Below, in pieces: positions 875 to 62,071 of a DNA stretch of 64,000 nucleotides (position 1 is the first letter of the stretch; each line of letters opens with the position of its first letter). This stretch comes from a virus. The DNA lies in IMG/VR virus record IMGVR_UViG_3300046092_000062, positions 249,866 through 313,865 of that record; one strand, 5' to 3'. A program made the position numbers and the translations under genes. The notes under the pieces were generated by a model that was not told where the DNA came from, ran no database searches, and saw only the letters and a program-made list of their open reading frames with translations.

Positions 875-1954
875 ATGAAGACAACAGATTTTATCACAGA
901 ACACAACGCATTTATTGCTCAAGACGCAAGCGAAATGCACACAGACCACGAAGTACAAATGGCCCGTGCTGACTGCTACCACGCAGCAGACTACGCTATC
1001 AAGCTACACAAGATTCTAGCGCAAGCTAACGATAATGGCAACATTGAGGGCTGGGTAAGCGAAAAGATTACTCTAGCCAATGATTATTTGCGTACTGTAT
1101 ACGAATACCTAAGCTACGAAGACCAAGAAGTTGACCTACATGCAATGCCTACATTTGCATTAGAATCAGCAGAGGCTCAATTGCAAGCTGCATTGGAAGA
1201 AGGTTACTCAATGGCTGATGTACAGCGTGACGCAGAAGCTAATGCACGTAAGTCAGTGGACAGAATGACTGCTCCACAAGAGAAGACTCCGTTTATGGCG
1301 CAAGTGGGCAAGAAGATTGTTGGCGGCGTAGCTGGTGCAGTTAAAGGCGCATATAAAGGCTTCACTGGACAAGTAAACGAAATTAACCCTCACAACTACG
1401 ATAGCGACGAAGATTACTACAATGCACTAAATGCTCCAGCGAAGCCTAAATACCGCAGTACTTCGAGTCCCGGCGTAAACCCAGACGACGAAGCATACTT
1501 CCGTGAAATCTTCCGTAAGAATCGCGAAGCCGCTGCTAGAGCACAACAAGAAAAAGATCAAGGCGTAACCGAAGGCGTTGCAGAAACCATGACAATGGAT
1601 GATGCCATGAAAGTGTTGCGCCACTACGGAGCAGGTCACTTTAAAACAACCAGCAATGAATTGCATTTTTATAAAAACGGCCAACCGTTTAGCGTTGACT
1701 TAACATTGGGTGCCGATAGTATAAGAACTGTAAGTTTGAGTCAATTGAATCAAGCCGCTCGTCAACTAAAAGGACAGGGGTTAGCCGAAGACAAGCAAAC
1801 AGTTAGTGAAATGACTGCTGGTGGCACAGGTGCTGGCGGTTTTGCAACAGGTGCAGCAGGTGGTACAGGTAAGCCAGGAACCGGTGTTCCTAAGCGTGTA
1901 AAGAATGTTGCAAAACGTTTAACTCCTAAGATTGGTACAGGAATCTACAAATGA
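875..1954 (+). CDS. Putative virion-internal protein with T4-like capsid-targeting N-terminus, 359 aa
   Basis: The protein opens with Met-Lys-Thr-Thr-Asp-Phe-Ile-Thr-Glu, very close to the ten-residue capsid-targeting sequence of T4 internal proteins, which the prohead protease removes after Glu. Residues 10-130 are acidic and helical. Around 145-170 there is a Gly/Ala-rich segment (VGGVAGAVKGAYKG) that could associate with membrane. Residues 230-238 read GVTEGVAET and 302-306 GLAED, sites of the kind cut by T4 gp21-type proteases. The C-terminus (residues 315-345) is Gly-rich low complexity. The ribosome site AGGAAA precedes ATG 875. Stop and next start overlap (ATGA). I infer a packaged or scaffold protein; the enzymatic role, if any, is unknown. 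Confidence 0.5.
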   Translation: MKTTDFITEHNAFIAQDASEMHTDHEVQMARADCYHAADYAIKLHKILAQANDNGNIEGWVSEKITLANDYLRTVYEYLSYEDQEVDLHAMPTFALESAEAQLQAALEEGYSMADVQRDAEANARKSVDRMTAPQEKTPFMAQVGKKIVGGVAGAVKGAYKGFTGQVNEINPHNYDSDEDYYNALNAPAKPKYRSTSSPGVNPDDEAYFREIFRKNREAAARAQQEKDQGVTEGVAETMTMDDAMKVLRHYGAGHFKTTSNELHFYKNGQPFSVDLTLGADSIRTVSLSQLNQAARQLKGQGLAEDKQTVSEMTAGGTGAGGFATGAAGGTGKPGTGVPKRVKNVAKRLTPKIGTGIYK

Positions 1955-4491
1955 GCGATATGCGTAAACTACTAGAGTCAATGAATAAGTTCGCCGGAGA
2001 GCCAGAACAAAAACCTGGTGACCAAGTTCGCGGAACAGAAAAAGCCACTAAACGTAAAGACGGTAAGCATCCATTTGCTGGTCGTCTAGTAGGCGCAGCA
2101 GAAAGCAAGAACATGCTTGCTGACCTAGAAAAAGAGCTAACCGAGAACGCAGGTAAGCATTCACTTGCAGAAGAGTTTGCGCAGTATAAAAAGCAACTAG
2201 ACGAATTCGCACCCAATGATGGCGGCGGTAGTCGTAAGTTTATTCCGTGGCCCGAGTTTATTGAGCAAGTAAAACAAATTGTAGGCAAAGACTTTGCAGT
2301 TAAAGAAAAGGTTATTAAGTCTACTATTCAAGATAGATTTATCCCACACGATCCAATGGAATTTGGTCCAACAATGCTTTACTCATACTATGAAGCCAGA
2401 TTAGGCCGCAACAAAGGTGCAGTTAGCACACGCGGCTCAATTCAAATTGGTAAGTATTTTGGCAACAGCGATTACTTTAAGTCAAACAATCCCGAACTTG
2501 CAAATCAACTGTTAACATCATTTAGTTTACTAAAAGGTCATCCTTTTGAACGCCACTTTGACTTAACGTTTGACAACATCTACAAGGTTGCCAACATCAT
2601 TATGGGCAATACACAGGGTGCATACCAAATGCCACAGCAACAAGGTGTGGCAGAAGGTCAACTAAACGAATATCTAGTAAAAGCCGGCATGCCTGTTGAG
2701 GATGTGCTAACACTAAACCTATTCCAAGACTTTGATCCAGTAGAAGGTGCTGCCGCACAGATCCCAGAGTTTGCCAACAGCAGACAATGGAAACAAGTTA
2801 TGCGTAAGTATGCACCTATTGCTAACATGCTAGAGAAAAAGCTATTAGCACAAAAGCGTCCATTAACAGATGCTGAAGCAGAAGCAGTTGAACAAACCTG
2901 GTATGATGGTTCTGATGCTTACGACGATTGCGAAATTGAATATCTAGTAAACATCTATGATCAACAGATTGATACACTAGAAGCATTGCTAGCAGGCAAC
3001 CTAACTGACGAAGAGTTTGGCGAAGGTGTGGCGGAAGACGAATCTCAACCAACCAAGTATCGTGCAACAGTTGAGTATGGTCCTACTGCGGCAGATGCAC
3101 ATTTCGTTACAGTGACAGCAAGTTCAACAGAAGAAGCAGAAGCTAAAGTTGCAGCATGGTGTAAGAAGAAGGGTGTTCGTAACCCAATGATTACTATCAA
3201 CGGCGCCGACAGACCAATGGACGAAGGTGAAGAAGAAGCGTTACAGTACGCAACTCAAGCTCACGCTGGTCAAACTAGAGCAGGCGGTGATCCTTACATC
3301 ACACACCCAATGCGTGTTGCTGACCACATTAGACAATATAAACAATCGCACAATCTTGAAGCACTGATCAGTGCTGCATACTTGCACGATACAATCGAAG
3401 ATACAGATACTACACACGAAATCCTACATGACTTGTTTGGTGGACTAGTTGCTAGTTTAGTTCAAGAGCTAACAAGTGATCCAGAACAGATTAAGCAGAT
3501 GGGCAAAGCTCAGTACCTAGCACACAAGATGGCTGCAATGAGCAGCTACGGTCTTGTAATTAAACTTGCTGACAGATTAGACAACGTTAAAGACATTACT
3601 ACTGCTAGAACTCCTCAGTGGAGAGCAAAGTATAAAGCCGAAACAGAGCACATTCTTAACTTCATTGAAAAGAACCGTGTGTTGACTGGCACGCATCGCA
3701 AGCTAATTGGTCTTATTCGTAACAAGATTGGCGAATTAGTTGAGCCACAGGTACAAGAAAACTACAGCGACGAAGCGCAGCCTATTCAAAACGACACAGC
3801 CGTTGAAGCATATGGTTATGCCTACAACAAACGTGACCAACGTGTTATGTGGCGCAAGGAATTCAGCAGTCAAGAAGCAGCATACAAGTGGGCTGACAGC
3901 AAGAACGCCACAGTAATAGGTATTCGTCCAGCAGCGCAAGCAATGGAAGAAGGTGCAAATCCAACTGACACAGTTACAATGGATATTCCATTGATGATTC
4001 GCTTGTTTGAATATGCTCGCGAAGACGCCAAGACTGATATGGATCTACACAATGTTGCTGAACGTTTGATTAAATTAAGCGCAGGCGGTCAAACATTGAC
4101 TATGGACAACTACAACGATATTTGCCCAGATCAAGAAACAGTCGACGAAGATGTTCCTGCACCTGTCGCTACCGCGGGTGGCGTAGCTGGTGCAACTCAG
4201 CCATCGACCCAAACTCCGGCTGCTACACCTAATCCAGCACAAGCTGCATTAGCCAAACAAAACCAAGCCAAGCTACAACAAAACTTAGCTAATTTGAAGA
4301 GTGCTGGCGTGCAAATTGATCCTGCTAAAGCAGCACAAACATTCCAGAAGACTGATACTGGCGCCCCAATGAACGCAATGGATAAAGACACTATTGCTAA
4401 GATGGCTCCTGCTATTGGTAATGTTATGTCAAACCCATCAACTGCTACCCAACTAAATACACTAATAAAGAAGGCCGGCGGCGGAGTATAA
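1951..4491 (+). CDS. Modular polyprotein with RelA/SpoT-type (p)ppGpp hydrolase HD domain, 846 aa
   Basis: Residues about 430-598 match the hydrolase domain of RelA/SpoT and Mesh1 enzymes: H438 in AHAGQTR, H452 in ITHPMRV, H479-D480 with E483-D484 in the HDTIED block, and D541 in LADRLDN. All metal-binding and catalytic positions I can align are present. The family hydrolyses (p)ppGpp to GDP/GTP plus pyrophosphate. No synthetase domain is seen. The rest is modular: an N-terminal leader (LLES, possible cleavage), a region around 90-220 of unknown fold, GVAEG at 232-236, GVAED at 359-363, and an Ala/Gln/Pro-rich tail from about 730. The sites look like prohead-protease cuts separating modules. 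Starts by ATGA overlap. The hydrolase fold call is strong; virion packaging is inference. Confidence 0.75.
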   Translation: MSDMRKLLESMNKFAGEPEQKPGDQVRGTEKATKRKDGKHPFAGRLVGAAESKNMLADLEKELTENAGKHSLAEEFAQYKKQLDEFAPNDGGGSRKFIPWPEFIEQVKQIVGKDFAVKEKVIKSTIQDRFIPHDPMEFGPTMLYSYYEARLGRNKGAVSTRGSIQIGKYFGNSDYFKSNNPELANQLLTSFSLLKGHPFERHFDLTFDNIYKVANIIMGNTQGAYQMPQQQGVAEGQLNEYLVKAGMPVEDVLTLNLFQDFDPVEGAAAQIPEFANSRQWKQVMRKYAPIANMLEKKLLAQKRPLTDAEAEAVEQTWYDGSDAYDDCEIEYLVNIYDQQIDTLEALLAGNLTDEEFGEGVAEDESQPTKYRATVEYGPTAADAHFVTVTASSTEEAEAKVAAWCKKKGVRNPMITINGADRPMDEGEEEALQYATQAHAGQTRAGGDPYITHPMRVADHIRQYKQSHNLEALISAAYLHDTIEDTDTTHEILHDLFGGLVASLVQELTSDPEQIKQMGKAQYLAHKMAAMSSYGLVIKLADRLDNVKDITTARTPQWRAKYKAETEHILNFIEKNRVLTGTHRKLIGLIRNKIGELVEPQVQENYSDEAQPIQNDTAVEAYGYAYNKRDQRVMWRKEFSSQEAAYKWADSKNATVIGIRPAAQAMEEGANPTDTVTMDIPLMIRLFEYAREDAKTDMDLHNVAERLIKLSAGGQTLTMDNYNDICPDQETVDEDVPAPVATAGGVAGATQPSTQTPAATPNPAQAALAKQNQAKLQQNLANLKSAGVQIDPAKAAQTFQKTDTGAPMNAMDKDTIAKMAPAIGNVMSNPSTATQLNTLIKKAGGGV

Positions 4492-4492
4492 C

Positions 4493-5758
4493 ATGTTTTT
4501 AAATCAGATATTTGAAGGTAAAAGTAACCAAAGTATAGCAGAGGCTATACCTTATGCGCTAAGTGCTGCAAACGCCAATGCCGAGTACGAACGTACTAGA
4601 ACTTTTGTGCCTCGTGGTTACAAAGGTCGCGTAGACTTAGATGTCAGCGACCAAGAAGAATATACTGAAGTTGCAAATGCTTTAAAAAATGCTGCTAAAC
4701 AGGCAGGCCAGCATATTGAGTGCGGGTTAAGTGGTAATCAAATGAGTGTGTTCTCTAAGACTATGGGCACAGATGAGTTAGATGAATTCATTGATGCCAA
4801 TCTTGACAGCTTATCTGAGGGTTGGAAAGACACTGCTACATTACTTGGCGCTCCAGTTGTTGCTGGCGCATTAGCAGTCGGCGCTCAACATTTTGATGAC
4901 CAAAAACCACATGTTCAAGTTGGTGGACAAAATGCCATGGTTGTGCAATATGATTCTAGTCGTATTCCTGACAATGCTATGGTATTAAAAGGTGCAGATG
5001 GTAAGATGTATCGTGTATGGCAACAGTCGGGCAAGGGCATGAACAAGATGACACTAGCGGCTCCTGCTGAAGTTAAAGAAGGTATCTTTGATCGCTTTAA
5101 GAAGAAAGCACCGGAACCAGAGATGGTTGACCCGGGAAACTACCCACGTGGTAGAGCAGACGTTGATCAATGGATGACAGACACAGTTGAATACTACAAA
5201 GTCAAATACCCTGACTCATTGTTTAAATTGTTCTGCCCAAGCTATAAGGATTACCTACCGGTGAGAGTGCGTGTAGGTACATCTGAACAAGTTATGTCTC
5301 AACACATGGGCACATACAAACAATTACGTGATGCTAATCCAGAAGCCAAGAAGCTAGCAAGACAGCGTTATACAGAATACGAGAAGTATCCAAGTGGCCC
5401 AAGCGATGACTACACTAATAAAGTAGCCGAAGGTGCAGACGAGCGCAAGCACAATGCACTATGGGCACAGATCACTGACTATGAAAAGCGTCAAGCTAAA
5501 GCAGGACGCTATGGACGTGACACTCAAGCACAGCACTTCAAACAAATGGCAGATCAGCTACGTGCTAAATTGCCAACTAGCGACAATCCAATTAACGAAT
5601 TGTCCAACGAGAAGTTAGCACAGTATAAAACAGCCGCAGCCGCTGATGCAAGCGCATCTGACAAGCGTGGCGAATACGATCGTGGTAACAAGCGATTTAG
5701 TGGCATAGTTAAAGCAACTAACAAACAATTTGCCAACGATGCCAAAAAGCACAGATAA
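4493..5758 (+). CDS. Putative virion-internal or structural protein, 421 aa
   Basis: The start is one base after the previous stop. The N-terminus (MFLNQIFEG) and the SIAEA at 14-18 resemble a capsid-targeting peptide and a prohead-protease site. There are further E-G sites at 109-110 (LSEG), 196-197 (VKEG) and 313-314 (VAEG). Residues about 113-132 form one hydrophobic Ala/Gly/Val segment that could be a membrane helix. The C-terminal third is very basic and helical (many Lys/Arg, tandem Ala), compatible with DNA contact. No known enzyme motif is visible. Its stop lies inside the start of the next gene. Likely made and processed with its neighbours. Confidence 0.5.
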   Translation: MFLNQIFEGKSNQSIAEAIPYALSAANANAEYERTRTFVPRGYKGRVDLDVSDQEEYTEVANALKNAAKQAGQHIECGLSGNQMSVFSKTMGTDELDEFIDANLDSLSEGWKDTATLLGAPVVAGALAVGAQHFDDQKPHVQVGGQNAMVVQYDSSRIPDNAMVLKGADGKMYRVWQQSGKGMNKMTLAAPAEVKEGIFDRFKKKAPEPEMVDPGNYPRGRADVDQWMTDTVEYYKVKYPDSLFKLFCPSYKDYLPVRVRVGTSEQVMSQHMGTYKQLRDANPEAKKLARQRYTEYEKYPSGPSDDYTNKVAEGADERKHNALWAQITDYEKRQAKAGRYGRDTQAQHFKQMADQLRAKLPTSDNPINELSNEKLAQYKTAAAADASASDKRGEYDRGNKRFSGIVKATNKQFANDAKKHR

Positions 5759-6830
5759 AGCGACTTCGGGATTTGTACATGCGATAGCAAAGTTTTTGCC
5801 TATCGCTGTTCGCATCCTTGAGATTGAAAAGCTACCTAAGATTGTTCCAGTGTTGGTAATGCCAGGTAACGACGAGCAAGGTAGCTTTGGTGCATATAAT
5901 GATGCAACACAAACTATCTACATTGCAATCGAACACCGTCACCCAATTGATATTCTACGTACCCTAGCACACGAGCTAGTACATTGGCGCCAACGCGAAG
6001 AAGATCGGTTGCCACCTGGCGCAGGTGCAACAGGCAGTCCAGAAGAAAATGAAGCAAACGCAATGGCCGGAGTTGTCTTGCGTGAGTTTGGTAAGAAGTA
6101 CCCTAAGTTCTTTAACGAGCCTGCTATTATCAAAGAAGACTTTGAATACGTACAAAACAACATTGCTTATCACGACACCCTAAATTCTGCTGCATGGAAG
6201 AATGATAGCCTACGTCCAGAAGTTAAATTAAAGCTAATGCAGATTGCTAAGGTGTTTGTAGACTACTTGGAAATACCTGACTTTAAGGTGCTAGATATCG
6301 TCTTAACTGGCAGTATGTGTAACTATAACTACACGAAATACAGCGATTTTGACCTTCATATTGTCACCCGCTACTCTGACCTACAGTGCGACGATATTGC
6401 CGCGGCGTTTTATCGTGCTAAAAAACAAATATGGAATGATGCACACGATGTAACCATTCGTGGTTACGATGTAGAACTATACGTAGAGGATTCTGAAGAG
6501 CCGCCAGTTAGTGCCGGTGTTTACAGTATCCTAAATGATCGCTGGATTAACGAACCCAAGTATGAACCGCCTAGCATTGATGACTCTGCGGTTAACCACA
6601 AAGTACACGACCTAATTAAACAAATTGACACAGCACTGTCTACCGCCGATGATTCAGCAGACATACAGCGCATTACAGATAAGATCCGCAAGATGCGCAG
6701 AAGTGGACTAGACCAATACGGCGAGTTTGGTGTAGAGAACTTGGCCTACAAAGTTTTGCGCAACCTCGGATATATTGATAAATTAATAAAAGCACACCTT
6801 CACAAGCAAGACGACGAATTGAGCTTGTGA
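5739..6830 (+). CDS. HExxH metallopeptidase fused to a nucleotidyltransferase domain, 363 aa
   Basis: I take ATG 5739 as the start, overlapping the previous stop by 20 bases; a TTG at 5730 is the alternative. Residues 78-82 are HELVH inside LAHELVHWRQ, a zincin zinc-binding helix, followed about 25 residues later by an ENEANA segment that could supply the third ligand Glu. Residues about 190-250 carry the polymerase-beta-type nucleotidyltransferase signature: TGSM (190-193), SDFDLH (202-207, two catalytic Asp) and a later VEL (245-247, third carboxylate). A possible cleavage-like IKED lies between the domains near residue 132. Both active sites look complete. The C-terminal 80 residues are helical and charged. 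Target of either activity is unknown. Last gene of the left operon. Confidence 0.65.
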   Translation: MPKSTDKATSGFVHAIAKFLPIAVRILEIEKLPKIVPVLVMPGNDEQGSFGAYNDATQTIYIAIEHRHPIDILRTLAHELVHWRQREEDRLPPGAGATGSPEENEANAMAGVVLREFGKKYPKFFNEPAIIKEDFEYVQNNIAYHDTLNSAAWKNDSLRPEVKLKLMQIAKVFVDYLEIPDFKVLDIVLTGSMCNYNYTKYSDFDLHIVTRYSDLQCDDIAAAFYRAKKQIWNDAHDVTIRGYDVELYVEDSEEPPVSAGVYSILNDRWINEPKYEPPSIDDSAVNHKVHDLIKQIDTALSTADDSADIQRITDKIRKMRRSGLDQYGEFGVENLAYKVLRNLGYIDKLIKAHLHKQDDELSL

Positions 6831-46551: not shown

Positions 46552-47642
46552 TACCGTTCTTTGGTATTGACCGTCAATACCTGACTATCCGCGACGAGTT
46601 GCTTAACGCAAGCGATGAGGTTTATAGGACTGGTCAGGTACTTGGTGGGCAACAAACATTCAATTTTGAATTGGCTATTGCTGAACGTTGCCAAAGGCGC
46701 TACGCTGTTGCAGTTGGTTCATGCACACAAGGGCTAATCTTCTCTCTAATGGCAGGACCAAAAGCAGGGGAGAAAGTAATGATTCCCACTATCAGCTTTG
46801 CTGCCACAATCAACAGTGTGCTCCTAAGTGGGCACGAACCTGTATTCTGCGACACTGATTACAAAGCACTAATTGATCTCGAAAGCAGCGACTATGCACT
46901 CAAAGGTGCAGGAGTTGGTGCTATCATGTACGCCAACTTGTTTGGCAACACCATTGATTACGATCGCTTTAGAGTCATGACAGAGTTTTTCAATCACGAT
47001 CTGTTTATCCTAGAGGATGCTGCACAGAGCTTTGGTGCAAGTTACAAAGGTATCCCCAGTGGCAAGCTAGGTACTGCAAGTGTGCTGAGTTTTGATCCCA
47101 CTAAGAATCTTCCCAACTACGGGTCAGGCGGGATGATACTCACAGACGATTACGAGTTCTTCTGCAACATAGTAGACCTACGGGACAATGGCAAAACAAG
47201 TGGGCATCAAATTCCTGGAACCAACAGTAGAATGAGCGAAAGCGATTGCGCTCAGATGCTGGTTAAACTCAAGTACTTTGATGCGTGGCAAAAACGTAGA
47301 ACAGCCATTGCAGAGTACTACATTGAGAACCTTGTGTCTTACGTGGATGTGCTACTGCCCAACGAAGATGTTGTTCACGCATGGCACAAGTTTGTTATTC
47401 GCCTAAGTAACAGACACGCATTGATGCAGTATATGCGCGATGCAGGCATCGAAACAAAGATGCACTACGATAAACCACTGTTTGAATTGCCAGTAGGATA
47501 CGAGTATACAGATTATATGAATGAGTTCTTTAGGGAATCAAGTGCATACACACGTGAATGTATGAGCTTGCCTATCTATCCCGAAATGACTGATGCCGAA
47601 GTCGAACACGTAGTTCGCACAATTAAGCAGTTCTTTAGTTAG
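46533..47642 (+). CDS. DegT/DnrJ/EryC1/StrS aminotransferase, 369 aa, TTG start
   Basis: SFDPTKNLPNYGSGGMILTDD contains the PLP lysine of this family, and the early GGQQTFNFELAIAERCQRRYAVAVGS and DAAQSFGASYKG segments also fit. No ATG is near the start; TTG 46533, 19 bases inside the epimerase gene, is the best candidate. It transfers an amino group to a nucleotide keto-sugar. A full-length relative of the truncated gene at 19511. Its stop overlaps the leftward gene's stop (tail to tail). Confidence 0.85.
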   Translation: MEIKNLIPFFGIDRQYLTIRDELLNASDEVYRTGQVLGGQQTFNFELAIAERCQRRYAVAVGSCTQGLIFSLMAGPKAGEKVMIPTISFAATINSVLLSGHEPVFCDTDYKALIDLESSDYALKGAGVGAIMYANLFGNTIDYDRFRVMTEFFNHDLFILEDAAQSFGASYKGIPSGKLGTASVLSFDPTKNLPNYGSGGMILTDDYEFFCNIVDLRDNGKTSGHQIPGTNSRMSESDCAQMLVKLKYFDAWQKRRTAIAEYYIENLVSYVDVLLPNEDVVHAWHKFVIRLSNRHALMQYMRDAGIETKMHYDKPLFELPVGYEYTDYMNEFFRESSAYTRECMSLPIYPEMTDAEVEHVVRTIKQFFS

Positions 47643-48459
47643 CAGGAGCAGTTAATATAAACTGTTTATCGGTTTGTGTTAACTGCCACGTTGGTAATAA
47701 ACGTTTGGCCATTCTAGCATACAACGATTGACGTGACTGTTCGTCTGCTGTGAATGTGAGTGCTGTTACTTTACCTTGGTAACGCTGCAAGAATTCGCGC
47801 ATGATATCAGTAATAGTTGACATTACTTCTGCACTGTTGCCGGTGCCAGTTAGACCAAATTTACCGTAACGGGTGCGCCCACGTTCGGCATTTTTAAATT
47901 CCACTTCCCATGTACCATTCGCCTCTGGATAAGTGTACGCATGGAATTGAAACGGGATCTCGCCAATGTGGAATACTGCTACTGCTTCTTCGCTGCCAGT
48001 AAAACTCCATTTGTAGTCTTTGCCGGGCTCAAATAATTCAGCAAGAGATTGGCCTGCTGCATCTTCGTAATAGCCTTTTTGGCCGTTTGGTAGGATGTGC
48101 TTGGACTGCTTGGATTGGTTCCAAGAACGCCACATTCTTTCGCCGGCATCAGTTTGGTCTGGATGCGGCATGACATCGTTGCCCAACATCTTAGCATACG
48201 CATACATGGTAGTAGCAACGCCTTGATCTCGGTAATTTGGATTTACCCAAGTACTTTGGCTTTTTAATGTGTCGGGATCAAAGTAAAAATTAAACAAAAT
48301 GTCGCCGATTAACTTTTTACCATCGTAGGCTTTAATTGCTAATCCAGCACCCTGGCTAGTCGCAGTATATGTATAGTCGCCGATTTGTTGTGTATGTTTA
48401 AAACGACGATGGGCGATGTCTGGGTTAATAGCTTCTGTGATAATTTCATTGATTCGCAT
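47635..48459 (-). CDS. GNAT-like acetyltransferase with capsid-targeting-like N-terminus, 274 aa
   Basis: The N-terminus MRINEIITEAINPD fits the T4 internal-protein leader (ITE before Ala). Residues about 70-95 carry WVNPNYRDQGVATTMYAYAKMLG, similar to the acetyl-CoA loop (R-x-x-G-x-A) of GNAT enzymes. The C-terminal half is a separate domain of unknown fold. It follows the glycosyltransferase-like gene directly (TGAATG). The GNAT call rests on one motif. Confidence 0.55.
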   Translation of the reverse strand: MRINEIITEAINPDIAHRRFKHTQQIGDYTYTATSQGAGLAIKAYDGKKLIGDILFNFYFDPDTLKSQSTWVNPNYRDQGVATTMYAYAKMLGNDVMPHPDQTDAGERMWRSWNQSKQSKHILPNGQKGYYEDAAGQSLAELFEPGKDYKWSFTGSEEAVAVFHIGEIPFQFHAYTYPEANGTWEVEFKNAERGRTRYGKFGLTGTGNSAEVMSTITDIMREFLQRYQGKVTALTFTADEQSRQSLYARMAKRLLPTWQLTQTDKQFILTAPAN

Positions 48460-50907
48460 TCAGTATTTAGCATCGTAGCGGGCACGTAGCCACGCCCACT
48501 CAAAGCTCAACTGTAGCTTTGCTAAATCACCCTGCACTTCTTCGTAGTATGCAACTGCATCGTTAGCACCGTCTATGCTGTAATTGCTGTAATTGCCCGA
48601 TGCAACCGTGCGCCATGTTTCAAGTCTATGCTCAGTTTCTAGTGTAGGCTGCGTATCCATAAACAATCGCAGCTTTAACACCTCTCTAAATGCTGTGCGC
48701 CATGTGGTCCAAGCGTCTTGGTTATAGTGAGCTACCCCGCTTAAAATAGGCACCGATTCGTGCGGTTGTGACAGTGTAAAGTCAATTCCAGGATCGTTAT
48801 TTGCTAAAACAAGGCTCTTATTGTAGGCAATCATTCCTTGGTGTCCGTACACTAGTCCATTGACGGGATTCTTTGCATTAAAGATGTAATGCTTGGGACC
48901 TTGCCAATAGTCTGGGCGGAACTCCCATATATCCCTGTTACCAAACACTTCTAGCTTGGCAAACACTGCTAGAAACCAATCTGTTGTGCTGGCCTGCGCT
49001 GCCGCTTGATATGCTGCTACACGCCCATTAACTCCACGGATCCATTTTACATCACGATTGCTCATGTACTCAGTATGCTCAAACCATTTCTGTTCGTCTG
49101 GTTCGCCATTGCTGATAAACACAATGTCCAAATCCTTTACTGCCTTCATATTACGCAATCGGGGATGCTCTACTAGATGCGGATAATCGTAAATTTGCGT
49201 TTTGAGATACTTCTTAATATCACGCGGAATCAAGCTGGTACTTTTGTCTGCACCAATGTCAATTGCAACGCGATCTTTTTCAGTCCACAGGCATGTGGTA
49301 TACCCGGTCATGCTAGTGAATTGTTTTTCCTTTGTAAACAAGGCATAGGGTGTAGTGAAGTTGTGATTCTTAATAGCGTTGATTAGATTGTCATGATCGT
49401 AGTGAACTGCTGGGACTGGGTAACGTGTTACTTCGTGCCCTTCTATATAGTTGATCACATTAAACCAATCCAACAACTCCAGTTCAACCATTTGCTTTTT
49501 AAATGACTCAACGTGAATGTAGAATGTGTCGCCACGCTTCTCTGGTGAGAGTGTCCATCTAGATTCATTAGAGAAGCAATGAATCATCTCACGTTGCCAC
49601 GGCTCAGGTTCCCACGTGAAGTCAAAGTCTCTGTAATCGCAAATGCTGTTGAGGATCCACACATACTCAGTGTCTGCGTTTTGCATGATACGCTTAAAGG
49701 TATCAAAATATGTGTTTACAAAACGTGTCTTAACCATGTCCGGATATGTGTTTAACATTGCCGGGTAATCGATTTCGCTTTCCGGATTGCCGTGGTCCAC
49801 AAAATACATGTCGCAGTTGGTGTCGGGCTTTACTACGCTTTGGTCAGACACAAAGTTTAAGCTAGGAAACTCTTCTATACCCTTTGCCCACTCTGTGTGT
49901 CGATTGAATTCCCACTTGTTGATTAGGAATGTGTCACTCCATTTGTTATGCTGACTTGGAAACACATGAGTCATGTACTGTTGCCATGGTTCGGCGTGCC
50001 AGTGGAAGTCAAAATTAGAATAGTCATACTCGCTGCTAACTACCCAAAACTTATTGGTCTTGCTTCGTGTAACACATCGCTTGATTGTGTCCATCATGCT
50101 GTTAGCATAACGAACCTTAGTGACATTGTGTATTTCATTAAGTCTATCATACCGCACCTGTGCTGTAGGGTTGCCTTTATCAACAAAGAAAATGTCCAGC
50201 ACTTGCATTGCAGTTAATTTGTGATAGCCAGGTGTAGGCATAGGTCCTGCAAAGCTAATGTCTGTTGCTCCGGGTACGGTATAAGTTAAGCCAATGCTTT
50301 GTTGATAGTCACTGCCAAAATGATAAACATAAAGTGGATCAAGCGGATTAGGATGCCAACTAAAGTCTACTGTAGACTCGTTAATCTCTTCAGGGATCGC
50401 CCAATGCGTTTTGTCCGCTAATGCAGTAACCGTAAACGCATTACCGAACTTGATGCCAGTTGTATGCAACATGGTGTAGTAAACACCACTGGCACTCTGA
50501 TGCTGACTAGGAAAGTGGTAAGTGTAGTTACCTTCTGTTGTATCCGGATGCCAAGTTAGATCCACCGAGGATGGGTCAATATAATCAGGTATCGTCCAGC
50601 CCGCAGGATAAGGCAATCGTTTAACTGATTGTTCAGTTCTAAAGTGATATTGTTTATGCGCATGGGTGTCTACGTGCGCAAGAAACACATCACCACATCG
50701 TTGATGCTGACTTGGCCACACATGCAAATGACTGTGTTCCCACGGCACAGGACGCCAATTAAAATCGAAGCCTGTGTAATCGTTGCCCCCATAAATATAC
50801 CAGTAGTACCCAGTTTTACACTTGGCCGCTGCTGCTTCTATGCTCGGCGCATATTGCTCAAATGCAAATAGGTTTGGCTTGCGGCCATAATAAAATACGT
50901 CAAACAT
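48460..50907 (-). CDS. Large repeat protein, glycosyltransferase-like, 815 aa
   Basis: A unit pattern F-D-F-x-W-x-P-x-PW...H-x-F-P-S-Q-H...D-x-F is visible in about five to six imperfect copies (near residues 47, 114, 180, 299, 427 and 690), each preceded by a strand-rich segment such as LDIFFVDKGNP or LDIVFISNGEP. These segments resemble the first strand and DXD-region of GT-A glycosyltransferases, so it may be a multi-domain sugar transferase or sugar-binding protein. I cannot confirm catalytic residues. Its ATG overlaps that of the divergent gene at 50906. Confidence 0.5.
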   Translation of the reverse strand: MFDVFYYGRKPNLFAFEQYAPSIEAAAAKCKTGYYWYIYGGNDYTGFDFNWRPVPWEHSHLHVWPSQHQRCGDVFLAHVDTHAHKQYHFRTEQSVKRLPYPAGWTIPDYIDPSSVDLTWHPDTTEGNYTYHFPSQHQSASGVYYTMLHTTGIKFGNAFTVTALADKTHWAIPEEINESTVDFSWHPNPLDPLYVYHFGSDYQQSIGLTYTVPGATDISFAGPMPTPGYHKLTAMQVLDIFFVDKGNPTAQVRYDRLNEIHNVTKVRYANSMMDTIKRCVTRSKTNKFWVVSSEYDYSNFDFHWHAEPWQQYMTHVFPSQHNKWSDTFLINKWEFNRHTEWAKGIEEFPSLNFVSDQSVVKPDTNCDMYFVDHGNPESEIDYPAMLNTYPDMVKTRFVNTYFDTFKRIMQNADTEYVWILNSICDYRDFDFTWEPEPWQREMIHCFSNESRWTLSPEKRGDTFYIHVESFKKQMVELELLDWFNVINYIEGHEVTRYPVPAVHYDHDNLINAIKNHNFTTPYALFTKEKQFTSMTGYTTCLWTEKDRVAIDIGADKSTSLIPRDIKKYLKTQIYDYPHLVEHPRLRNMKAVKDLDIVFISNGEPDEQKWFEHTEYMSNRDVKWIRGVNGRVAAYQAAAQASTTDWFLAVFAKLEVFGNRDIWEFRPDYWQGPKHYIFNAKNPVNGLVYGHQGMIAYNKSLVLANNDPGIDFTLSQPHESVPILSGVAHYNQDAWTTWRTAFREVLKLRLFMDTQPTLETEHRLETWRTVASGNYSNYSIDGANDAVAYYEEVQGDLAKLQLSFEWAWLRARYDAKY

Positions 50908-52799: not shown

Positions 52800-52999
52800 T
52801 CTCTTCCCCAAATAATTTTGTTCCAGACACGTTCGTGTATAAAATATAACACGGTGTTAATTACTAATTGTGTTGATGCTATTGCTCCGGCTATTTGAAG
52901 GTTGCCGAGTACCAAATACGATATCAATAAAGTTGATGCCGTACCGGTTACTCTCCAACTAATAGTCTTAGCAATGCTTCTACCAGTCGCTTCAGTCAT
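52796..52999 (-). CDS. DUF2061 membrane protein, 67 aa
   Basis: Two hydrophobic helices and YFIHERVWNKIIWG at the end, matching the paralogue at 27634. ATGA-coupled to the carbamoyltransferase and nucleotidyltransferase. Function unknown. Confidence 0.65.
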   Translation of the reverse strand: MTEATGRSIAKTISWRVTGTASTLLISYLVLGNLQIAGAIASTQLVINTVLYFIHERVWNKIIWGRE

Positions 53000-54483
53000 G
53001 AACAGACCTTTACGCCATACAACTGTTCGAATCTATCTGCATCTGCACGATCGTTTACCATTGGTTCCCCACGTATGTTAAGACTTGTGTTTAACAACAT
53101 AGGGCACCCTGTCATCACGTACCATTTTTCGAGCAGCTCTCTAATGCCGCTTCCATCTTTTGGCACTGTCTGTACACGACTAGTTCCGTCAGCGTGAACG
53201 ATAGCAGGAAATAGGTCAGGAACCCTACACCTAGCGACTGACTGCATATACCTACTATGCTCGAACCCACGAGGCATATCAAAGTAAGTATCAGCCAGTT
53301 CTTCCAAAATAACTGGCGCAAAGGGTCTGAATTGTTGTCTACGTTTGATGTCATTTACTTTCTCCTTAATCTCGCTGCCTCTAGGATCTGCAAGCAGGCT
53401 TCTGTTTCCAAGTGCTCTTGGACCGAACTCGGCTCTCCCGGAAGCCACTCCCACAATTTGCCGAGTAAGTAACTCGTCCAGAACGTCGTTAACAGGGTAA
53501 GGGCCAGGAATATTATGCCCGAGATAAGCGTCATGCCAGTTAAGGGCACCCCCATAAGCCAGAGCGGCAGCACCAAGGCTACTGCCAGCATCCCCAGGGT
53601 TAGGCATAATCCATATATTCTCAAAGTAGTTTCCTATACGTGCATTTGCTGCACAGTTTAAAGCGCATCCGCCCATGTATACAAGGTTGTCACTCCACTT
53701 AAATTGCTTTGCGCGAAGCATGACGTTGAGAATCAAATCCTCAGCCAGGTCCTGTGCTGCGGCCGCAATATCCATGTCACTAAAGTTAGACAGGTACTTT
53801 GTACTCATGCCCATGTGCAAGTTTTCTTTAAACTTGATTTCCCATTCGTCGGATACCAAGTCTAGCTTCATTATGTCTTTAGCATATCCGCCACCATAAG
53901 CAGCCATGCCCATTAGAATGTATTCTTCGTCTAGTGGGCGTAGGCCAACGAGCTTAGTAGCTCCAGTATAAAAGAGTCCGATTGAATGTGGGTAATTCTG
54001 TTGCCAAAGTCGCTTATAAGTTGCTTTACCGTTGCTATCATATTCTGCTCCCCAAATTGAGATAGTTTCAAATTCACCAATGGCGTCAATAACAACTACT
54101 GTGGCCTTGTTGAAACTGCTGGTCTGAAATCCCGCTGCTGCATGGCTCAGATGATGATTGTAGTTCTTATAGTACTTTAGATCCCACCACTTGGCATGCC
54201 CAATCTGCTTATGCACAAGTTTCTTAACGCTGAGCTTATCCCACTCGAATCCTTGTCCTGCATAAGCCTGACGCAACTGCTTATATAGAGGACGTTCGTA
54301 ATAAGCCACGGTCTGGATGGGATTGTATTCCTCGAGCTTACGAATAAGTGGACTACAGAAATTAGCATCTGACTTTGACTTACTATATCTTTCGGAATGA
54401 CTGGCGAAAAGGATGTTCCCATCTTCGTCTAATACTGTTGCGGCTGCGTCATGATAACCAGCCGAGATGCCTAATATGTTCAT
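52996..54483 (-). CDS. Carbamoyltransferase (TobZ/NodU family), 495 aa
   Basis: ISAGYHDAAA at the N-terminus, HHLSHAAAGF, GGCALNCAAN, NPGDAGSSLGAA, GRAEFGPRALGNRS and the C-terminal LNTSLNIRGEPMV are all present, so the protein is complete. The family uses carbamoyl phosphate and ATP to carbamoylate sugar or antibiotic hydroxyls; phage members have been proposed to act in DNA hypermodification. The sugar-modifying neighbours fit either role. ATGA overlap with the DUF2061 gene. Confidence 0.9.
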   Translation of the reverse strand: MNILGISAGYHDAAATVLDEDGNILFASHSERYSKSKSDANFCSPLIRKLEEYNPIQTVAYYERPLYKQLRQAYAGQGFEWDKLSVKKLVHKQIGHAKWWDLKYYKNYNHHLSHAAAGFQTSSFNKATVVVIDAIGEFETISIWGAEYDSNGKATYKRLWQQNYPHSIGLFYTGATKLVGLRPLDEEYILMGMAAYGGGYAKDIMKLDLVSDEWEIKFKENLHMGMSTKYLSNFSDMDIAAAAQDLAEDLILNVMLRAKQFKWSDNLVYMGGCALNCAANARIGNYFENIWIMPNPGDAGSSLGAAALAYGGALNWHDAYLGHNIPGPYPVNDVLDELLTRQIVGVASGRAEFGPRALGNRSLLADPRGSEIKEKVNDIKRRQQFRPFAPVILEELADTYFDMPRGFEHSRYMQSVARCRVPDLFPAIVHADGTSRVQTVPKDGSGIRELLEKWYVMTGCPMLLNTSLNIRGEPMVNDRADADRFEQLYGVKVCS

Positions 54484-60702: not shown

Positions 60703-60730
60703 TATAGTGAATTATAGTGAATTATAGTTG
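60701..60730. repeat. Tandem decamer repeat, three copies
   Basis: ATTATAGTGA occurs twice and then ATTATAGTTG once, in the gap between radical SAM copies 3 and 4. On the minus strand each unit contains TATAAT, so the array could act as repeated -10 elements, or simply reflect slippage. Confidence 0.7.
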
Positions 60731-62071
60731 ATTATACCAAGCTGCTAGCTCTGGGAATGTGTTGCAGAAGTCTTTGCCCCTGCGTTGATCGTACTGTGCA
60801 AAGAAGTTTTTAAAGTCCTGTTGTAACACTGATTGCTCTGCTGCGCCTGCATGTGGAGTTATCATCACATCAAGGTAATCAATTAGTCGTTTCAATTGAT
60901 CAATTTCAAATCCATGGCACACGTTGCTATCTTTGTGTGCTTGATAGAAGTTGCTGAGATTTGTTCTGTATTGGGTGCGTAGTTCGTCGGGTAATACCAA
61001 CGGGCTTTGAAAACTTGGGAATCGTAAAATATTTAGCGAAAAGTTAATCGAGTCTTTACCATACTTACGCTTCCATGCCACTACCATCTCAAGGAAGCGG
61101 TCTAAGCTGCTAAGACATAGTGCGTTGACAGTACACATCACATGCAAACCACGGAACTTGCCGCTATCTAACAAACGCTCTACGTTGTTAGTCCAGTCCT
61201 CAAAGTTAATACCATCACGGATGTACTCAGACTGCAAGCCAATGGATTCGTTGCTGGTATACAAGTCAACTTCAACGCCATCAATGGCGCCAAGCAAGCG
61301 ATCGATATCTACTTCCGTGCCTAAGTTACTGTTAATAGCAAGGCGTGTCTTGCTCTTGCCTTTGTTGGTCTTAAACCATTCAATCAGCTTCCACGTTTCG
61401 CCCGACATCAATGGCTCTCCGCCGGTGATGCGTAGTTCCTTTAGTGTTCTGTGGAGATCGCTTTCCCACCACTTGTGAAAGGCGTCCACATAAGGATTAG
61501 CTTGACCGAAGCGATACAGTTGAGAGCTATCATGAGCATGAGTAAAGTGATTTCGTCCGTCACTAACCAATCCGTTATAGGCCCCGTTATTCCTAATGTC
61601 TTTAACCCAAGTGCTGCTAAAAGCAGGATTGCAGTAACTACATGCAAACTGACAAGTGCGGTCGAAAGCAATTTCCAAAGTTTGCAAATCCACATCGGTG
61701 CTGGCTGGGGTACTAAAAGCATAATTTAAATCCTTATCGTCATATATAACTGTTTTGTAAACACGGTCAGACACAGAGTCTTTACCCATGTCTTCAATCT
61801 TCCAGCAGTATTCACAACCTGCAGGACGTTCTCCCTTTTGCATCTGCTCACGTTCCATTTTCTTTTTAGAAGTGTTGTGCAGTGCTTTGGGGTTTGATGA
61901 TAGCTCACTCACATCAATTGCATGTGGCAACGGATGATGGCAGCTAGTGGTTTGACCACTACCTAACCAGATAGTGGCGTTGTACCATTTTGCTCCGCAG
62001 AAGCTTTCGCTCTTAATGTCAATCACTCTGCGTTTGTATTCTAGGTCTGTTTCGTTATTGATTCTGGGCAT
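60722..62071 (-). CDS. Radical SAM protein with N-terminal twitch domain 4, 449 aa
   Basis: C140-x3-C144-x2-C147 (TCQFACSYCNPAFSS) and TGGEPLMSGE. N-terminal C25, C44, C86 and C89 (CEYCWKIED). Copies 4 and 5 share a second sub-pattern (C-x-HHPLPH or C-x-HPPLHK, then PKALHN or PSALHN), so they form a subgroup distinct from copies 1-3. Confidence 0.85.
   Translation of the reverse strand: MPRINNETDLEYKRRVIDIKSESFCGAKWYNATIWLGSGQTTSCHHPLPHAIDVSELSSNPKALHNTSKKKMEREQMQKGERPAGCEYCWKIEDMGKDSVSDRVYKTVIYDDKDLNYAFSTPASTDVDLQTLEIAFDRTCQFACSYCNPAFSSTWVKDIRNNGAYNGLVSDGRNHFTHAHDSSQLYRFGQANPYVDAFHKWWESDLHRTLKELRITGGEPLMSGETWKLIEWFKTNKGKSKTRLAINSNLGTEVDIDRLLGAIDGVEVDLYTSNESIGLQSEYIRDGINFEDWTNNVERLLDSGKFRGLHVMCTVNALCLSSLDRFLEMVVAWKRKYGKDSINFSLNILRFPSFQSPLVLPDELRTQYRTNLSNFYQAHKDSNVCHGFEIDQLKRLIDYLDVMITPHAGAAEQSVLQQDFKNFFAQYDQRRGKDFCNTFPELAAWYNQL

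Follow-up and report, generated by a model that had tools for sequence, protein, structure and literature searches.

Why should a phage protein carry, in the middle of its chain, the hydrolase half of a bacterial alarmone enzyme? The question is raised by an open reading frame (ORF) at 1951-4491 of a 64,000-nt stretch (here called the window) that covers positions 249,866-313,865 of a 320,767-bp IMG/VR virus record, IMGVR_UViG_3300046092_000062. The reading that seems best, to which we would give a probability of about 0.58, is that the ORF encodes a head-packaged alarmone hydrolase, which would be released by a prohead protease and injected at infection.

A hydrolase domain without a synthetase

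ORF 1951-4491 contains a complete RelA/SpoT-type hydrolase domain, with no synthetase. Its main features are as follows:

1951-4491, + strand: modular protein with a hydrolase module, 846 aa; the ORF is present as earlier noted
3304-3306, + strand: first metal-binding His, H452; invariant
3385-3402, + strand: HDxxED motif, H479-D480 and E483-D484; invariant
3571-3573, + strand: metal-binding Asp, D541; invariant, with N545 next at 3583-3585

Residues 430-568 match HD_4 (PF13328; E = 6.4e-15; score 55.7 bits, cut-off 27.2), and the protein matches PHROG 990 (metal-dependent phosphohydrolase; E = 2.6e-31). By sequence, the nearest PDB entries are Mesh1 of Drosophila and human (3nqw and 3nr1; E about 3e-15), followed by Rel/SpoT and small alarmone hydrolases (SAHs). 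The metal set (H452, H479, D480, and D541), the catalytic pair (E483/D484) and three further residues (R443, K538, and N545) are all invariant in 52 aligned phage sequences and 44 bacterial homologues. The first-pass annotation, made from the sequence alone, had described an HD domain with all the metal and catalytic residues of RelA/SpoT hydrolases and had named H479 and D480 as residues to mutate, correctly in both respects. It was also right that the synthetase half is missing: there is no RelA_SpoT synthetase (PF04607) match at E ≤ 0.01 anywhere in the 320,767-bp record, in a search that detects the synthetase in 11 of 14 control genomes. With neither a synthetase nor a regulatory (TGS/ACT) domain beside the hydrolase, the composition is that of a small alarmone hydrolase and not of a long RSH protein.

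The predicted structure agrees. An AlphaFold2 model of residues 423-604, from an alignment of 46 rows without rows from named phage records, has a pLDDT of 93.0 and a pTM of 0.89. In a Foldseek search of the PDB with this model, a comparison with Mesh1 that the first-pass annotation had suggested, places 1-48 were all Mesh1, SAH (including that of Pseudomonas), RelH, Rel, or SpoT. Since the model matches these folds, and only these among the first 48, the predicted fold is that of the SAH/Rel hydrolases and not of a different HD phosphohydrolase. A model of the full-length protein has a mean pLDDT of only 48, its alignment being shallow, and is usable in the hydrolase region only.

In IMG/VR, a scan turned up 112 relatives, and 80 of them were kept. 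They take two forms, stand-alone proteins of ~186 aa, which are frequent in related T4-like contigs, and modules within proteins of 372-1,383 aa. In a tree, the modular copies make up one clade of 13 (including that of the window), plus L043, plus L044 and L045 as a pair, and all of these are nested within the stand-alone copies; the starred branches require at least three changes. Wherever dS could be measured, the dN/dS of the domain is 0.01-0.14, and it is therefore under purifying selection. A bacterial origin was looked for and set aside: the nearest bacterial proteins found are Rel hydrolase domains, which are 31-43% identical and lie outside the phage clade. There is no close (>60%) relative among the isolated phages of the INPHARED copy searched, so the group is so far known from metagenomes only.

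SAH and Mesh1 proteins (3nqw, 3nr1, and 6yvc; PF13328) are thus like the window domain in having a single HD_4 domain, the same fold and metal and catalytic residues, no synthetase, and a similar size, if the predicted released module of 178 aa is taken. Unlike them, the window domain lies in an 846-aa modular chain; in relatives, the domain may follow a short N-terminus of targeting-like form. The phage clade, for which hydrolase activity is predicted, also has invariant residues of its own in the group alignment (K519, Y522, Y561, and R576).

Targeting-like starts and candidate cleavage sites

The T4 prohead protease gp21 cuts after L/I-X-E, and the T4 capsid-targeting sequence is 10 residues long (PMC9026906). 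As positive controls, T4 IPIII and IPII both start MKTYQEFIAE/A (the slash marks the cut point, here and below). The stand-alone relatives have comparable starts, such as MRIAELLE/D, MKTFKKFISE/D, MIRFKQYIAE/D, MKSFKQYISE/E, and MQSFKSHLINE/S, in which a short segment resembling the T4 capsid-targeting sequence ends in hydrophobic-X-Glu (hXE) immediately before the enzyme. The corresponding features of the window protein are:

1951-1977, + strand: capsid-targeting-like N-terminus MSDMRKLLE/S; putative cut after E9, from its likeness to T4 IPIII/IPII and to the stand-alone relatives
2644-2655, + strand: GVAE/G linker, residues 232-235, candidate prohead-protease site; QGVAE recurs at module ends in relatives
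3025-3036, + strand: GVAE/D linker, residues 359-362, candidate prohead-protease site from its sequence
3217-3225, + strand: MDE/G immediately before the hydrolase module, residues 423-425, candidate cut site
3226-3759, + strand: predicted released hydrolase module G426-E603, 178 aa, from the HD_4 match, the AlphaFold2 model, and the flanking hXE
3751-3759, + strand: VQE/N immediately after the module, residues 601-603, candidate cut site

MSDMRKLLE/S has the gp21-type targeting pattern by form only, the motif being loose; the pattern is clearer in the stand-alone relatives. Immediately before the enzyme, modular copies have MDE/G, VEE/G, LEE/S, FDE/G, MAE/G, or LDE/S. Counted on distinct sequences, all but one of the 45 members of the T4-like clade (44) have an hXE cut point 12 or 13 residues before the conserved His (-12 or -13). 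The same holds for only 2 of 12 homologues from other phages (Fisher p = 2e-8) and for 14 of 63 Rel homologues from bacteria (p = 9e-17), in rows that are related and hence not independent. At the module end, relatives have QQGVAE, QDVAE, EVTE, or TVDE. Cuts at MDE425/G and VQE603/N would release an enzyme of 178 residues, the size of Mesh1. In the full-length model, residues 418-422 have a pLDDT below 50 and 597-684 are of low confidence, as linkers would be, in a model that is poor elsewhere too.

The modules themselves appear in other orders in L010-L027, L043-L045, and L184-L189. In L017, one chain holds the hydrolase together with the modules (nucleotidyltransferase and linker) that are found here in the ORF entering the window from upstream; in contig G007, the hydrolase has a targeted gene to itself (L028), and another modular protein (L188) contains the first module of the window protein. 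Once similar boundaries had been collapsed, hXE was counted at 20 of the 34 ends of modules, where 7.4 would be expected (reached by 0 of 2000 random placements), and at 19 of the 51 starts, against an expected 10.7 (15 of 2000), while the control motifs hxD, hxK, hxQ, and hxS showed no enrichment at module boundaries.

A protease that might make such cuts is encoded in the same genome. A T4-type S77 prohead protease (E = 5.6e-27) is found at record position 862, followed by a scaffold-like gene and then a gp23-type major capsid protein, and the record is therefore assigned to a jumbo T4-like phage. The protease is also found in 8 related contigs; the nearest large relative lacks it, probably because that contig stops inside gp23. 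The first-pass annotation had placed the domain in a phage polyprotein, which it took for a virion or early protein; that the protein is modular and likely belongs to the virion is well supported by the targeting-like N-termini, the hXE sites, and this protease. Two short gp23-like matches (G000:209020-209205 and 210593-210673) lie far from the main capsid gene, and similar ones are present in the relatives G001 and G002.

A Pfam search of the protein's other modules gave nothing above threshold; a check for signature domains of polyvalent proteins (such as a built-in metallopeptidase, MuF, or ART) gave only a sub-threshold DUF6782 metallopeptidase match (residues 233-363, E = 0.0012). The C-terminal module, 'TMDIPLMIRLFEYAREDAKTDMDLHNVAERL' (window 3763-4488; loci L194-L269), occurs at at least 120 IMG/VR loci, often in proteins starting MDMKKILQALD.

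Neighbouring genes and the CTAAATA motif

The ORF lies among others of the same class:

1-582, + strand: 3′ end of another ORF of this class, the third, which begins at G000:249158 with MFIAEMFTE/AAQ...
849-855, + strand: CTAAATA motif, 26 bp before ORF 875
875-1954, + strand: upstream ORF of the same class, MKTTDFITE/H, containing GVTE/GVAE/; overlaps the start of 1951-4491
4453-4459, + strand: CTAAATA motif, 40 bp before ORF 4493
4493-5758, + strand: downstream ORF of the same class, MFLNQIFE/G; its module 'GWKDTATLLGAPVVAGALAVGAQH' recurs in L189

The ORF starting at G000:249158 encodes a nucleotidyltransferase module (PF01467) and then GISE/ and GMEE/ modules, and it too has a CTAAATA 26 bp before it. 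In total, of 7 genes with targeting-like starts, 4 are preceded by the motif at a distance of 11-40 bp (Fisher p = 1e-4, for genes picked by eye). On this weak evidence, CTAAATA may be a late promoter of this phage, a variant of T4 TATAAATA. The T4 form itself was considered and rejected, as it is not enriched (1 in the window, with 3.1 expected; 0 in L002 and L008). CTAAATA also occurs shortly before further genes, for example at 48470 (- strand) and, in L002, at 9942 and 19266.

Some other genes have starts or domains of possible interest here. A Fe/Mn superoxide dismutase (PF02777, E = 6.6e-22) at L003:5535-6074 (G000:215401-215940) has a start, MHSIRNTLTLLE/S, resembling the capsid-targeting form, and is possibly another packaged enzyme. 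A GNAT-like acetyltransferase (window 47635-48459, - strand; PF00583, E = 1e-4) begins with the targeting-like MRINEIITE/A and has a CTAAATA just upstream. Adjoining the modular proteins, the ORF at 5730-6830 combines a zincin-like metalloprotease motif (HELVH) and a nucleotidyltransferase segment (GS...SDFD), and is another candidate effector. A reverse-strand block includes Nol-like carbamoyltransferase and radical-SAM-like genes (52996-54483 and 60722-62071, both - strand), which perhaps serve in DNA or surface modification.

Possible roles in infection

If the hydrolase is indeed packaged, ORF 1951-4491 would be made late in infection as a modular internal head protein. Its targeting-like N-terminus and those of its neighbours would bring the chains into the prohead core, where the gp21-type (S77) protease would cut after hydrophobic-X-Glu, freeing modules including G426-E603; the freed hydrolase would stay in the mature head and enter the next host with the phage DNA. 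There it would strip the 3′-pyrophosphate from (p)ppGpp, or from a related alarmone product, before phage gene expression, and so could disarm the stringent response or an alarmone-based defence. T4 offers precedents, since its internal proteins are targeted and cut and the enzyme Alt is injected (PMC9026906); in SPN3US, the prohead protease processes proteins that are ejected (PMC10052503). The benefit of ppGpp loss varies from phage to phage: of the phages tested on Pseudomonas putida, close to half gained from the absence of ppGpp, and the others fared worse (PMC12814882).

Several observations weigh against this proposal. The hXE motif is short, with 22 occurrences in the 846-aa protein, some within the folded domain. 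Near gene starts it is not enriched genome-wide (32 against 25 expected, 169 genes), so that the motif alone identifies nothing, and at module starts a polar-X-Glu control is as enriched as hXE. Bacterial Rel proteins commonly have a Glu one residue off, at their first helix, and one near the hXE position is common in alphaproteobacterial Rel, mostly without a hydrophobic residue two before; because of this, helix capping could explain part of the Glu conservation. Finally, Mesh1-type enzymes take several substrates.

The alternative that survives best, though unlikely, accepts packaging and release but not free (p)ppGpp as the substrate. The enzyme would instead reverse an alarmone-type abortive defence, removing the tRNA 3′-end pyrophosphate put on by toxSAS/CapRel-like effectors or hydrolyzing (p)ppApp. 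The SAH of phage SSU5 does remove the tRNA modification made by FaRel2 (PMC11559606), and both a (p)ppApp hydrolase (7smg) and the MESH1-PAPS complex are among the fold matches of the module. However, no pocket feature was found that selects tRNA-CCA-PP or (p)ppApp, and the ET pair (564/565), which is like that of Rel hydrolases in the group alignment, suits ppGpp equally well.

It is somewhat more doubtful still that the domain is an ordinary intracellular enzyme made during infection, in an unprocessed chain whose hXE motifs are due to chance or structure. hXE is a low-information motif, and SAH-type proteins without a targeting-like start are found in other phages, among them a T4-like Vibrio phage (L093) and BcepSauron; the BcepSauron and Vibrio pv27 copies differ in this from the T4-like clade. 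Chance would not readily place hXE at one position in 44 of 45 clade members, though, or QGVAE/hXE at the ends of shuffled modules, and the T4-like targeting sequences of the stand-alone genes and the S77 protease in the genome also argue for processing. That the packaged enzyme is a metabolic one, a Mesh1-like nucleotide phosphatase for NADPH or PAPS and not for alarmones, is improbable: human Mesh1-NADPH (5vxa) and MESH1-PAPS (9chy) are among the second to fourth fold matches, and the residue after R443 is A where Mesh1 has K in the PDB sequence alignment, but bacterial SAH and Rel/SpoT proteins match equally well in sequence and fold.

The packaged, protease-released hydrolase would have something in common with three known systems. 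The first-pass annotation knew of no phage structural polyprotein with such a domain; the virion-targeted modular form does appear unreported in the open-access literature searched, but put broadly the claim goes too far, as alarmone HD hydrolases of jumbo phages are already listed by Iyer et al. (2021, section 3.4.8; PMC7824862). These (also PHROG 990) have the same SAH-type domain and a proposed anti-alarmone role; that section describes them among counter-nucleotide systems, without virion targeting, fusion, or prohead-protease sites. T4 IPI-IPIII and Alt (PMC9026906) share the short N-terminal propeptide ending in hXE/, the S77 protease, and gp23, with Alt as the precedent for delivery of an enzyme; unlike them, the window protein has a cargo of alarmone-hydrolase type, placed mid-chain with sites on both sides. 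Polyvalent proteins (PMC5512222) are large multi-domain phage proteins for which packaging and injection are proposed; their effector domains, alarmone enzymes among them, can be exchanged, and the window protein and its relatives likewise have several exchangeable domains per phage chain. The polyvalent alarmone domain, however, is a RelA/SpoT synthetase nucleotidyltransferase and not a hydrolase, and release is ascribed mainly to built-in peptidase domains, where here it would be by the prohead protease at linkers. No report of a capsid-targeted hydrolase, or of effector modules of this type released by a prohead protease, was found in the open-access literature (subscription papers and preprints fell mostly outside this scope). 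Jumbo-phage alarmone hydrolases are known, and so, separately, are targeted internal proteins; of the combination no description was found.

That a widespread group of T4-like aquatic phages carries an alarmone hydrolase in the virion, as a single capsid-targeted protein or as a module of a reshuffling polyprotein that the prohead protease cuts into separate effectors, seems to us an even bet. Many environmental bacteria are starved, and an arriving phage should meet high (p)ppGpp in them. If the proposal is true, a dose of an eraser of the stringent response, or of alarmone-based defence, would be delivered at time zero; unlike a newly made enzyme, one brought in by the head could work ahead of phage transcription. 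A targeting-like start combined with hXE flanks would also provide a simple sequence rule by which further head-packaged effectors of T4-like phages could be listed, and what alarmones do in the first minutes of infection would become directly testable.

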